Below, piece by piece: positions 39,957-54,780 of a stretch of DNA of 64,000 nt; position 1 is the stretch's first letter; every line of letters starts with the position of its first letter. Location: positions 1 to 64,000 of the forward strand of contig JAKIZM010000009.1 in the NCBI GenBank assembly GCA_022708025.1, in the 5' to 3' direction. This stretch comes from Bacteroidota bacterium. Its GTDB lineage: Bacteria > Bacteroidota > Ignavibacteria > Ignavibacteriales > Ignavibacteriaceae. A model generated the notes under the pieces. The model was not told the DNA's origin and did not search any database. It was given only the letters and a program-made list of their open reading frames with translations. Made by a program: the position numbers and the translations under genes.

Positions 39957-40886
39957 TTAACTTTTTGTATCAATAGTGGAAGAGTTTCTGAGATTTGATT
40001 TTATAATCATTTCAATCATAGAATCTAATGTGTAAGATCTGGTCCAGGATGATTTCAATTCATCCCTGTCTGAAATAAATTTAGGATCGATTACACCCGG
40101 ATTTAGATCCCGATATTCAGCATTAAGCTTTCGATTACTTAACTCCTCAAATCTTCTAGAGATATCCTCGTTTAAGCATCCATCTCCCACAAGAAGATAA
40201 TTATCTTTATCACCAATCAAAGTAGTATTAATTATCAAATCTATTGCTTCATCAATGTAAAAAATGTTTGAAATATGCCCTTTATTTACAATAATTTTTT
40301 TATTGTTAAAAGCGCTGTTAAATAGCTGAGTTAAGAGTTGAGTTGGCACTTCCCCTAAAGATGAAATGGATCCTAATCTTAAATTAATAACTCGGGTGGA
40401 TGTTTTATTAAACAAAGCTTTAAAATAATTTTCAGCAGCTACTTTTGCTATCCCATAAGAAGTTAAAGGCTGAGGTACAGATGAATCAAAAACAGGGCTT
40501 TCATTTAACTCACTAAATATTTTAATAGTGGAAATGTTAATAAATTTTTGGGGTTGTTTCTCTTTTAACCAGTCCCAAAAGAACTCGTGAATATTCAGAT
40601 TTGAGTTAATCTCAAATAACAACTGTTCAGTAAATGATTTTGACCGATCAACCTGCCAATGAAAATTTATTATATAATCAAAAGTTTCAAGTTGGTTTAA
40701 ATCTTCTTTTTTATAAATTTTTATTGGCTTTACAGATGATGTCCATTCCACTCTTTTAGGTAGTTCAGGATAACCTTTTAAGATTATTGGAATTACTGTA
40801 GCATTCAGGTCTTCCAGTCGTTGGCAAATCTCTTTGCCTAAACGACCGGTAGAACCTGTTATTAGAAACTTTTTTCCTTGTAAAAT
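39957..40886 (-). CDS. NAD-dependent epimerase/dehydratase-like protein, apparent ATT start
   Basis: An SDR-fold nucleotide-sugar enzyme. A GTG at 40751 would give 264 aa but would omit the cofactor-binding strand. The frame is open upstream and reads GKKFLITGSTGRLGKEICQR, a complete Rossmann GxxGxxG motif. Between the in-frame stop and this motif there is no ATG, GTG or TTG. An ATT at 40886 lies 7 bases after GGGAG, giving 309 aa. The active-site Tyr/Lys region reads LTSYGIAKVAAENY. Sequence after about residue 250 is less typical, so the reaction is unassigned. It starts 4 bases past the upstream epimerase's stop codon. A single-base assembly error is the main alternative. Confidence 0.78.
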   Translation of the reverse strand: MLQGKKFLITGSTGRLGKEICQRLEDLNATVIPIILKGYPELPKRVEWTSSVKPIKIYKKEDLNQLETFDYIINFHWQVDRSKSFTEQLLFEINSNLNIHEFFWDWLKEKQPQKFINISTIKIFSELNESPVFDSSVPQPLTSYGIAKVAAENYFKALFNKTSTRVINLRLGSISSLGEVPTQLLTQLFNSAFNNKKIIVNKGHISNIFYIDEAIDLIINTTLIGDKDNYLLVGDGCLNEDISRRFEELSNRKLNAEYRDLNPGVIDPKFISDRDELKSSWTRSYTLDSMIEMIIKSNLRNSSTIDTKS

Positions 40887-51164: not shown

Positions 51165-52208
51165 ATTAAGAATAGAATAGTAAATATCGATTTAACCTCA
51201 GATAAACGATGGGATAATTTTGTTATGAATAATCCCAAAGCATCGATTTATCATACTTCAAGCTGGCTAAAATCAATTTCTTCTTCACTTGGATACAAAT
51301 TCTATCCGATTGGTATCGAAAATTCAGATACAGGTGAATTGACCGGAATTCTTCCGCTGGCACAAGTAAAAAATTTCTTGTCTGGAAGCAAGTTAATATC
51401 ATTTCCACTGACGACACATTGTGAGCCATTAGTGGAAGAAGAACAATTAAAAAAGATTTATGATAAACTAATCTCAGAATCCGGGAAAAATGATTTTGTA
51501 GAAATTCGTTCTTTAGATTATGACTGCAATGTAGAAAGAGCAAGTCTGAACGAGAATTTCGTGATTCATGTTTTGGAATTGGAAGAAACAGAAGATAAAA
51601 CTTTTCAGAAATTTCATGGAACCAGTGTTCGCGCTTCAATCAGGCGTGCAGAAAAAAATGGACTTTCATTCGAAATAAATAACAACACTACCGGATTAAA
51701 AGCTTTCTATTCTCTTTTTTCTAACTTAAGAAAAAGATTAGGACTTCCGATTCTCCCGTATAAATTTTTTAATGACATTTATACAAATCTTATTGAAGAT
51801 GATATGATATTAATCCCTCTTGTGAAACTTGGAAACCAGGTTATTGCTGCTGGATTTATTCTAAAGTTCAAAGATACTTTTTATTTGGAATATACTGATT
51901 CGGATAAGTCGAAATTGAATTTATACCCAAATCATAAATTATTTTGGGAAATAATAAAAATTGCGATTAGAGAGAAGGCAAGGTATGTCGATTTCGGAAG
52001 AACAGAAATTAATAATCATTCCTTAATAACTTTTAAAGAAAAATGGAATGCAAAGCAAAAAAGACTGAAATATTGGCGAGTCGGTATCAAACAGGAAACT
52101 GAATCCTCTTACAGAAACATTAAATCCGTTTTTATAAAAATCAACAAATATTTACCTCAAAACATATTAAGATTAGAAAGTAAAATTATTCATAAATATA
52201 GTGGTTAA
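51165..52208 (+). CDS. FemAB-like N-acyltransferase, copy 1, apparent ATT start
   Basis: A FemAB/GNAT-fold transferase of the kind that adds amino acids or acyl groups from tRNA or CoA onto sugars or peptides. The ATG at 51225 is not the likely start: 20 codons upstream are open and homologous to copies 2 and 3 (NIDLTSDKRWDNFV against SFIDPTKIERWDELI). No ATG, GTG or TTG lies between 51165 and the preceding stop, but ATT at 51165 follows GAGAA. This gives 347 aa, identical to copy 2. Conserved blocks: YHTSSWLKS, GILPLAQVKNF, CEPLVEEE, VDFGRTEIN, FKEKWNAK. It may modify amino sugars of the repeat unit. Confidence 0.75.
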   Translation: MKNRIVNIDLTSDKRWDNFVMNNPKASIYHTSSWLKSISSSLGYKFYPIGIENSDTGELTGILPLAQVKNFLSGSKLISFPLTTHCEPLVEEEQLKKIYDKLISESGKNDFVEIRSLDYDCNVERASLNENFVIHVLELEETEDKTFQKFHGTSVRASIRRAEKNGLSFEINNNTTGLKAFYSLFSNLRKRLGLPILPYKFFNDIYTNLIEDDMILIPLVKLGNQVIAAGFILKFKDTFYLEYTDSDKSKLNLYPNHKLFWEIIKIAIREKARYVDFGRTEINNHSLITFKEKWNAKQKRLKYWRVGIKQETESSYRNIKSVFIKINKYLPQNILRLESKIIHKYSG

Positions 52209-52309
52209 AAAAATCTCACTTTTTTAGTGATCGAATGTTGTAGTTCGAATTTGTCAAAATAATTTTTGTTATCAGACAAACATACATTCAAAAGTTTGGA
52301 GAAATTATA

Positions 52310-53353
52310 ATTAATAATAGAATAATAAATATCGATTTAACCTCAGATAAACGATGGGATAATTTTGTTATAAATAATCCCAAAGCATCGATTTATCATA
52401 CTTCAAGCTGGCTAAGCTCAGTTTCATCTTCACTTGGATACAAATTCTATCCGATAGGTATCGAAAATTCAGATACAGGTGAATTGACCGGAATTCTTCC
52501 GCTGGCACAAGTAAAAAATTTCTTTTCCGGAAGCAAGTTAATATCATTTCCACTGACGACGCATTGTGAGCCATTAGTTGAAGAAAAGCAATTCAAAAAA
52601 ATTTATGATAAATTAATCTCAGAATCCGGGGAAAATGATTTTGTAGAAATTCGTTCTTTAGATTATTCCTGCAATATGGAAGAAGCAAGTTTAAACGAGA
52701 ATTTCGTGACTCACGTTTTGGAATTGGAAGAAACAGAAGAAAAGACTTTCCAAAATTTTCATAGAACCAGTGTTCAGGCACTGATTAAGAAAACAGAAAA
52801 AAATAATCTTAAATTTGAAATAGATAACAGCACTGTTGGATTAAAAGCTTTTTATTCCCTTTTTTCTGACTTAAGGAAAAGGTTAGGACTTCCGATTCCT
52901 CCTTATAAATTTTTTCACAATATTTATACAAATTTAATTAAAGATGATAGAGTATTAATTCCTATAGTTAAACATGAGGATTTAGTTATAGCTGCCGGAT
53001 TCGTTCTAAAATTTAATGATACTTTTTATATAGAATATACTGCTTCAGATAGCTCAAGTTTAAGTTTATATCCAAACCAAAAGTTATACTGGGAAATAAT
53101 TAAGATCGCAATAAGAGGCGGAGCAAGGTTTGTAGATTTTGGAAGATCAGAATTAACTCACAAGTCCCTAATAACGTTTAAAGAAAGATGGAATACCAAG
53201 CGAAAACGGTTGAAATATTGGCGTATTGGCAGTCAAGCAGAAGAACCATCCTCCACTAGGAAAGGAAAAGCAACTTTTGTGAAAATCAATAAACATTTGC
53301 CTAAAAGTGTTCTTCAATTACAGGGCAAAATATTTTATAAATATAAAGGTTGA
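52310..53353 (+). CDS. FemAB-like N-acyltransferase, copy 2, apparent ATT start
   Basis: Tandem paralogue of copy 1. A TTG at 52484 would remove 58 codons of sequence that are nearly identical to copy 1 at DNA level. In that region there is no ATG, GTG or TTG; the codon matching copy 1's internal ATG is ATA. An ATT at 52310 sits 8 bases after GGAG, giving 347 aa. Visible blocks: YHTSSWLSS, CEPLVEEKQF, FVDFGRSELTH, FKERWNTK. Compared with copy 1 the 5' half is almost unchanged while the 3' half has diverged, suggesting duplication followed by local conversion. Confidence 0.78.
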   Translation: MNNRIINIDLTSDKRWDNFVINNPKASIYHTSSWLSSVSSSLGYKFYPIGIENSDTGELTGILPLAQVKNFFSGSKLISFPLTTHCEPLVEEKQFKKIYDKLISESGENDFVEIRSLDYSCNMEEASLNENFVTHVLELEETEEKTFQNFHRTSVQALIKKTEKNNLKFEIDNSTVGLKAFYSLFSDLRKRLGLPIPPYKFFHNIYTNLIKDDRVLIPIVKHEDLVIAAGFVLKFNDTFYIEYTASDSSSLSLYPNQKLYWEIIKIAIRGGARFVDFGRSELTHKSLITFKERWNTKRKRLKYWRIGSQAEEPSSTRKGKATFVKINKHLPKSVLQLQGKIFYKYKG

Positions 53354-53745: not shown

Positions 53746-54780
53746 TTGAATATTAGTTTTATAGATCCGACCAAAATAGAAAGATGGGATGAGTTAATAC
53801 TTAACTTTCCTGACTACACGTTTTTCCATACTTCTGATTGGGCAAAAGTATTACAAGAAACATATAATTTTAAGCCACATTACTTAAAGTTTACAGAATC
53901 TGGTCGGATAAAAGCTATCTTGCCATTGATGGAGGTTAATAGTCTTTTTACTGGTAAAAGGGCCGTATCTTTACCCTTTACTGATTTTTGTGAGCCTTTG
54001 ATTTCAAGCGGTGTTAATTTAAAACGTCTTCGTAACAGAGTTATGAATTACAGCAAACAAAAAAGATTTAATTCTGTTGAATTCAGAGATAGTGAAGTTC
54101 ATCTGGATAATTCTATCATTATACCAGCTGGCTATCAGCATATTCTGGATTTAACTTTAAGAGAAGAAGATCTTTTCAGGAATTTATCTGATAATACAAG
54201 AAGGAATATCAGAAAGGCAATAAGGAATCGTGTTACTTTTGAAATAGATAATTCTCTTTCTGCTTTGGAAGACTTTTATAATATGAATTGTTATACAAGA
54301 AGACGACATAATCTGCCCCCTCAGCCATTCAAATTTTTTAAAAACCTTTATGAAATAGTATTAACTAAAAATAAGGGAATTATATGTATATCAAAATATA
54401 AAGGGAAAAGTGTTGCCAGTGCAGTATTTCTTTTGATTGGTCAGAAAGCAATCTATAAATATGGAGCTTCACTTTTCGAATATCAAAACATAAGACCTAA
54501 TAATCTGCTGATGTGGGAAGCAATAAAATATTTAAAGGATCAAGGATATAAAGAACTTAATTTTGGAAGAACAGAACTTGAAAATATTGGTTTGAGAAGA
54601 TTTAAACTCGGTTGGGGGGCTGAAGAGATGCTATTAAATTATTATAGATTTGAATTTGGGAAAAACGGTAAAATTTCCGCGTCAACAAGCTCCTTAAATC
54701 AAGGTAGGCTTCCATTAAACAAATTTCCTATATTTCTGCTCAAGATAATCGGTAATTTGGTATATAAACACGTAGCTTAA
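53746..54780 (+). CDS. FemAB-like N-acyltransferase, copy 3
   Basis: A 344-aa third FemAB-like protein, more diverged from copies 1 and 2. It keeps the same landmarks: YTFFHTSDWAKVLQETY, ILPLMEVNSLF, CEPLISSG, RRNIRKAIRN (basic patch), ELNFGRTELENIGLRRFKLG. The start is TTG at 53746, matching the N-terminal lengths of copies 1 and 2 and so supporting their ATT starts. No strong ribosome site is seen. It probably acts on a different acceptor than the tandem pair. Confidence 0.8.
   Translation: MNISFIDPTKIERWDELILNFPDYTFFHTSDWAKVLQETYNFKPHYLKFTESGRIKAILPLMEVNSLFTGKRAVSLPFTDFCEPLISSGVNLKRLRNRVMNYSKQKRFNSVEFRDSEVHLDNSIIIPAGYQHILDLTLREEDLFRNLSDNTRRNIRKAIRNRVTFEIDNSLSALEDFYNMNCYTRRRHNLPPQPFKFFKNLYEIVLTKNKGIICISKYKGKSVASAVFLLIGQKAIYKYGASLFEYQNIRPNNLLMWEAIKYLKDQGYKELNFGRTELENIGLRRFKLGWGAEEMLLNYYRFEFGKNGKISASTSSLNQGRLPLNKFPIFLLKIIGNLVYKHVA

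Follow-up and report, generated by a model that had tools for sequence, protein, structure and literature searches.

According to our analysis, the second of three tandem FemAB paralogues (copy 2) is very probably an intact FemAB/FemX-like acyltransferase gene that is translated from a near-cognate AUU codon at position 52310 and would yield a protein of 347 amino acids. It lies in a stretch of 64,000 nucleotides, hereafter the window, of a 3.45-Mb draft genome consisting of 117 contigs. At the level of sequence, support for the ATT start proposed in the original prediction is given by the lack of a canonical start in the frame, by selection that reaches up to the ATT (codons 1 to 58), by the spacing of the Shine-Dalgarno (SD)-like core, by the position at which homologues start, and by near-cognate codons in two relatives (G038 and G043) that are likewise devoid of a canonical start. 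The features concerned are collected in the table.

Features of the window discussed in the text (positions count from the first nucleotide of the window)
Feature	Position	Strand	Remarks
FemAB/FemX-like acyltransferase copy 2	52310..53353	+	347 aa, proposed AUU start 52310-52312
Proposed start codon ATT of copy 2	52310..52312	+	Frame survey and homologue alignment
GGAG, Shine-Dalgarno-like core	52298..52301	+	8 nt before ATT 52310
In-frame TAG bounding any N-terminal extension of copy 2	52241..52243	+	
First canonical in-frame start of copy 2, TTG (codon 59)	52484..52486	+	Gene caller's choice
FemAB-like copy 1	51165..52208	+	347 aa from ATT; first canonical start is ATG, codon 21
Third FemAB-like paralogue	53746..54780	+	30% identity to copy 2; starts with TTG
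NAD-dependent epimerase/SDR gene	39957..40886	-	ATT start, GGAG spacing 7, 4/4 orthologues; second independent ATT case in the window

Reading frame and family of copy 2

Read from 52310 to 53353, copy 2 translates into 347 residues followed by a stop codon. Between the upstream TAG and the first canonical start, 80 codons remain open without any ATG, GTG, or TTG; 22 of them precede ATT 52310, which is the 23rd, and 58 run from the ATT onward. Frame reading bears out that 52310-52483 is free of canonical starts, as had been claimed, and the same holds for the other particulars of the original prediction, namely, that ATA takes the place, at codon 21, of the ATG of copy 1, that ATT 52310 follows GGAG at 8 nt, and that copy 2 counted from this ATT equals copy 1 counted from its own (347 amino acids each). 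Two other triplets stand in frame beside ATT 52310, i.e., ATA 52307, 5 nt after GGAG, and ATT 52304, 2 nt after it. Translation from TTG 52484 would result in a product of 289 amino acids.

Pfam searches assigned copy 2 to PF13480 (Acetyltransf_6; 51.0 bits, gathering cutoff 22), over residues 151 to 285 of 347, and to PF02388 (FemAB; 30.7 bits, gathering cutoff 24). Its score of 135.5 bits against the NCBIfam equivalog TIGR03019 (pepcterm_femAB) is below the cutoff of 260.35 bits; copy 2 was therefore not placed in this equivalog and differs in this respect from the XrtA/PEP-CTERM-associated FemAB proteins. The closest solved structures according to sequence are FemX chains (E value about 2e-5). 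Built from a four-row alignment, the AlphaFold2 model of the 347-residue protein has a low overall quality (mean pLDDT, 56.2). When it was submitted to Foldseek, FemX structures ranked at the top (1xe4, E value of 1.2e-11, 320 columns), and the alignment with Weissella FemX extends across 320 to 339 columns of a model whose mean pLDDT is only 56. Copy 2 thus resembles FemAB/FemX acyltransferases both in its PF13480 and PF02388 matches and in the FemX fold indicated by Foldseek.

Conservation of the upstream codons and position of the start

Among 164 genomes of the order, five contain a match at an E value of 1e-50 or better, namely, the host genome (G000), G043, G035, G038, and G045, the match in the last being partial (38%). 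The coordinates and sequence of G043 agree with those of CP053447.1, Ignavibacteriota bacterium isolate IGN3. Comparison of copy 2 with the orthologues in G038, G043, and G035 gave dN/dS ratios of 0.12, 0.15, and 0.13, respectively, for codons 1 to 58 (dS, 1.09 to 1.23), of 0.16, 0.22, and 0.02 for codons 2 to 20, and of 0.19, 0.13, and 0.14 for codons 59 to 347; the G043 gene has one in-frame stop near its end, where up to the last 7 codons may be misregistered, which leaves codons 1 to 58 unaffected. Since purifying selection on codons 1 to 58 resembles that on the rest of the gene, this part of copy 2 is, as judged from its substitution pattern, translated and no relic. The pattern goes beyond chance, because the upstream codons are conserved as protein while synonymous change with respect to the three genomes is near saturation. 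A scan of codon usage log-odds for upstream coding was too weak in this AT-rich genome, with a mean of about 0 for the first 20 codons.

The aligned codon 1 is ATT in four of five genes (copies 1 and 2, G038, and G035) and ATA, with ATT before it, in G043. The first canonical in-frame codon past this position is codon 21 in copy 1 and in G035, 46 in G043, 59 in copy 2, and 112 in G038. The G038 gene reads AAGGAG-AGCT-ATT and has no canonical codon until that point, while in G043 the ATA at column 1 is accompanied by a weak SD. By eye, the same kind of open reading frame (ORF) end precedes the gene in G038, G043, and G035. From the upstream stop to the conserved N terminus, copies 1 and 2, G038, and G043 are all without a canonical start; G035 has an ATG there. 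As judged from their sequences, G038 (AAGGAG with ATT) and G043 (ATT-ATA) are independent support for a near-cognate start, and the comparison of start codons in related FemAB genes, suggested as a check in the original prediction, places near-cognate codons at the same site in both. The exception, G035 (L006, reverse strand), has its in-frame ATG 32 codons upstream of the ATT, with GGAGAA ahead of it, and would carry a Lys-rich N-terminal extension that is absent from the other orthologues. This orthologue may start canonically, with the extension, and counts against a universal rule: the noncanonical start is not shared by all orthologues.

To narrow down the site of initiation further, 19 members of the family were aligned with MAFFT, and we used the nine homologues that have a single canonical codon near the N terminus. 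Relative to ATT 52310, their Met column lies at 0 in three, +1 in one, +2 in four, and -1 in one. Homologues with several candidates each were left out (L008, L009, L018, L019, and L020, for which the script picks +10, +2, +7, +6, and -1, respectively). For calibration of the SD spacing, 364 ATG-started genes of the genome sample were inspected, and 63 GGAG matches were found within 0 to 24 nt. Spacings of 5, 6, and 8 nt account for 15 of the 63 each and a spacing of 2 nt for a single one; according to these counts, ATT 52310 (8 nt) and ATA 52307 (5 nt) are normally spaced and ATT 52304 (2 nt) is not. An SD at the native spacing therefore holds for copy 2, whereas in G038 the GGAG spacing of 4 is marginal (1 of 63 in G000) and in copy 1 and G043 the SD is weak.

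The reading named in the original prediction as its refutation, in which translation begins at TTG 52484 and the 58 upstream codons are an untranslated relic, is contradicted by these data, and we consider it very improbable. TTG 52484 is indeed the first canonical start, and the protein made from it would retain the Acetyltransf_6 match. However, the selection on codons 1 to 58 argues against it, as do the homologues, which begin at the ATT column, and the orthologues, where this TTG is TTA in three of three and where, in G038, the first canonical codon lies far beyond it. Such a start would also cut strand and helix elements predicted, with low confidence, for a first GNAT-like domain. What is less sharply decided is the exact triplet. 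A start at the neighboring near-cognate ATA 52307 or ATT 52304 is unlikely overall, even if ATT-ATA-ATT is found in both copies and even if the spacing of ATA 52307 is as common as that of ATT 52310. Column 1 is ATT in both G038 and G035, whereas the codon that precedes it is GCT in the former and CCA in the latter, and the spacing of ATT 52304 is nearly unused. On these grounds, ATT 52310 is the most probable of the three triplets.

Entry into the frame from upstream, by a frameshift, readthrough of a stop, or an out-of-frame start, seems still less probable than the TTG start. The prfB gene of the same genome fits the known RF2 frameshift, and G035 does have an upstream in-frame ATG; against this, the DNA ahead of the copies is not conserved (22% identity between them at -100 to -40), in-frame stops lie close by (TAG in copy 2 and in G038, TGA in copy 1, and TAA in G043), and by eye no shared slippery site was seen in the copies, G038, and G043. 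That an ATG was misread as ATT by a sequencing or assembly error would suit a draft of this many contigs, and the relative G043 has apparent frame breaks elsewhere, but the same ATT occurs in both copies, G038, and G035, with ATT-ATA in G043, which leaves this explanation a negligible chance.

Relationship of the tandem copies

Initiation at ATT in copy 2 has a counterpart in copy 1, whose room for a start comprises only GAA-ATT-ATA-ATT, an in-frame TGA being separated from the ATT by only 3 codons, and which has TGAG in place of GGAG. The two copies are 77% identical, with an uneven distribution. As to INDEPENDENCE of the two copies, 60-nt ungapped blocks at offsets 20 to 380 have 88 to 98% nucleotide identity, and the blocks beyond offset 380 have 55 to 85%. 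The tree built from the 5' part (435 nt) joins copy 1 to copy 2 with a bootstrap value of 100, whereas in the 3' tree copy 2 groups with G043 (bootstrap value of 99). Because the 5' and 3' trees group differently, the copies would predate the split between G000 and G043, unless one of them was acquired, and their 5' parts would have been homogenized afterward. We deem them most likely to be old paralogues in which about 430 nt of the 5' part, including the start codon, was homogenized by gene conversion. The 5' parts differ by 2 synonymous and 6 nonsynonymous changes, and the resulting ratio of 0.80 is uninformative.

Since their 5' parts were homogenized, most likely by gene conversion, the two copies do not testify to the ATT start independently of each other. 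The original prediction had stressed the near identity of the copies: their 5' likeness is real, but as independent conservation it does not stand, gene conversion or recent homogenization being indicated instead by the two trees. As far as the sequences tell, the argument from near identity is weak and the one across genomes holds.

Near-cognate initiation in other systems and probable cases elsewhere in the genome

In the mechanism that we propose, the GGAG core would place the 30S subunit at AUU 52310, and the ordinary initiator tRNA with its CAU anticodon would decode AUU as (formyl)Met in spite of the third-base mismatch, with a lower yield and under discrimination by IF3. That fMet is inserted, that the yield is low, and that IF3 represses this gene in the way it represses infC and sigR is inferred from established knowledge. 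A scan for tRNA genes (own locus for 30 of 45 matches, some of the remaining matches falling inside those loci) detected tRNAs with the CAU anticodon, among them two initiator-like genes in tandem. No initiator tRNA with another anticodon was seen in the 30 loci covered.

In E. coli, infC and pcnB are described as starting with AUU, and the same has been proposed for lepA of Borrelia and Bacillus licheniformis (PMC1780047); the pcnB start is also cited in PMC13009471, and an ATT start of infC is reported in Xanthomonas (PMC5559785). For Staphylococcus, PMC13009471 reports the start sites of cvfC1 (AUU) and ccpN (AUA), located by Ribo-Ret and reporters with a lowered yield, and states that conserved AUU and AUA starts reduce yield in S. 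aureus. IF3 is reported to disfavor AUU/CAU pairing (PMC10158994) and to repress infC and sigR, the latter, in Streptomyces, starting with GTC and being misannotated in genomes (PMC5472188). With near-cognate starts already known from infC, pcnB, cvfC1, and sigR, copy 2 appears from its sequence to be a further, well-supported example. What it has in common with infC and pcnB is a near-cognate AUN start after an SD, missed by gene callers; infC, however, autoregulates through IF3, and no comparable feedback is obvious for a FemAB-like enzyme. It resembles cvfC1 and ccpN in having a conserved near-cognate start outside infC, but these are described with extended SD motifs and experimental proof, whereas copy 2 has GGAG only and a start predicted from its sequence. 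The likeness to sigR lies in a misannotated noncanonical start, the differences, according to that report, in the GTC codon and in sigma factor stoichiometry. In the openly licensed literature searched, we found no report of a FemAB gene, or of any gene in Ignavibacteriota, with a near-cognate start.

The SDR gene listed in the table starts with ATT-TTA-CAA/CAC-GGA/GGG in four of four orthologues, with GGGAG just ahead and the first canonical codon 41 to 74 codons downstream; in the window, the GGAG overlaps the 3' end of the preceding epimerase gene, next to its stop codon. Copy 2 had been ranked as the strongest of three ATT cases, which is debatable: with its GGAG spacing and its four orthologues, the SDR gene is arguably the stronger one as far as sequence goes. 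Gene callers limited to ATG, GTG, and TTG misread the N termini of such genes or truncate them, the loss being 58 residues in copy 2 and 45 in the SDR. That two ordinary enzyme genes keep the same near-cognate start in several species suggests undercounting of starts of this kind, and these may be kept to hold expression low or to make it depend on IF3. A more far-reaching idea is that this Ignavibacteriota lineage deliberately holds a small set of surface polysaccharide-type genes from one locus, namely, the SDR and the two FemAB copies, at AUU in several species, as a translational regulon beyond infC whose output is tied to IF3 activity; we regard it as speculative and rather unlikely.

The infC gene of this lineage is itself without a canonical start from the upstream stop to the N terminus in 20 of 20 loci (21 genomes with a match), and by eye its start is ATC in 18, ATA in 1, and ATT in 1. 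A random sample of 594,906 bases was taken outside the window; of its 438 ORFs of at least 120 codons, 28 have at least 20 open codons before their first canonical start. Among these, by eye, only a ClC chloride channel gene is near-cognate-like; prfB also stands out, with an upstream reading that fits the known RF2 frameshift. The window has 5 of 49 ORFs with such a stretch, three of which (copy 1, copy 2, and the SDR) were taken as real by eye; given this by-eye judgment, no enrichment of the window over the sample is claimed. When 151 ORFs with a relative at 55% or above were compared between G000 and G043, G042, and G035, in regions partly chosen around these genes, conserved protein at least 20 codons ahead of the first canonical start was recognized by eye only for infC, ClC, the SDR, and the two FemAB genes. 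Two further ORFs of G000 and G043 (L150 and L081), with upstream stretches of 23 to 24 conserved-looking codons, were interpreted as leaders or overlapping genes whose DNA is conserved between close species.

The ClC gene (L069, 14628-16709, minus strand) has no canonical start in three of three close orthologues, 61 to 77 conserved codons being free of one in the host genome and in two genomes of the same genus (G043 and G042); the comparison covered 23 of 29 further loci and left out at least L111, L115 to L118, and L123. It was not counted as an ATT case, the candidates being CTG, ATT, and ATA and the first of them being GTT in G043. The prfB gene (RF2; L046, 15250-16302) has a conserved N-terminal part without an in-frame canonical start, as expected from the known programmed frameshift of RF2. 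A possible near-cognate start of a GT9 gene in G043 (L099) was set aside, as this genome appears to have frame breaks. Those at L089 (18420-19307, an RNase Y-like ORF) and L005 (the 3' end of the FemAB gene) are probably sequencing indels.
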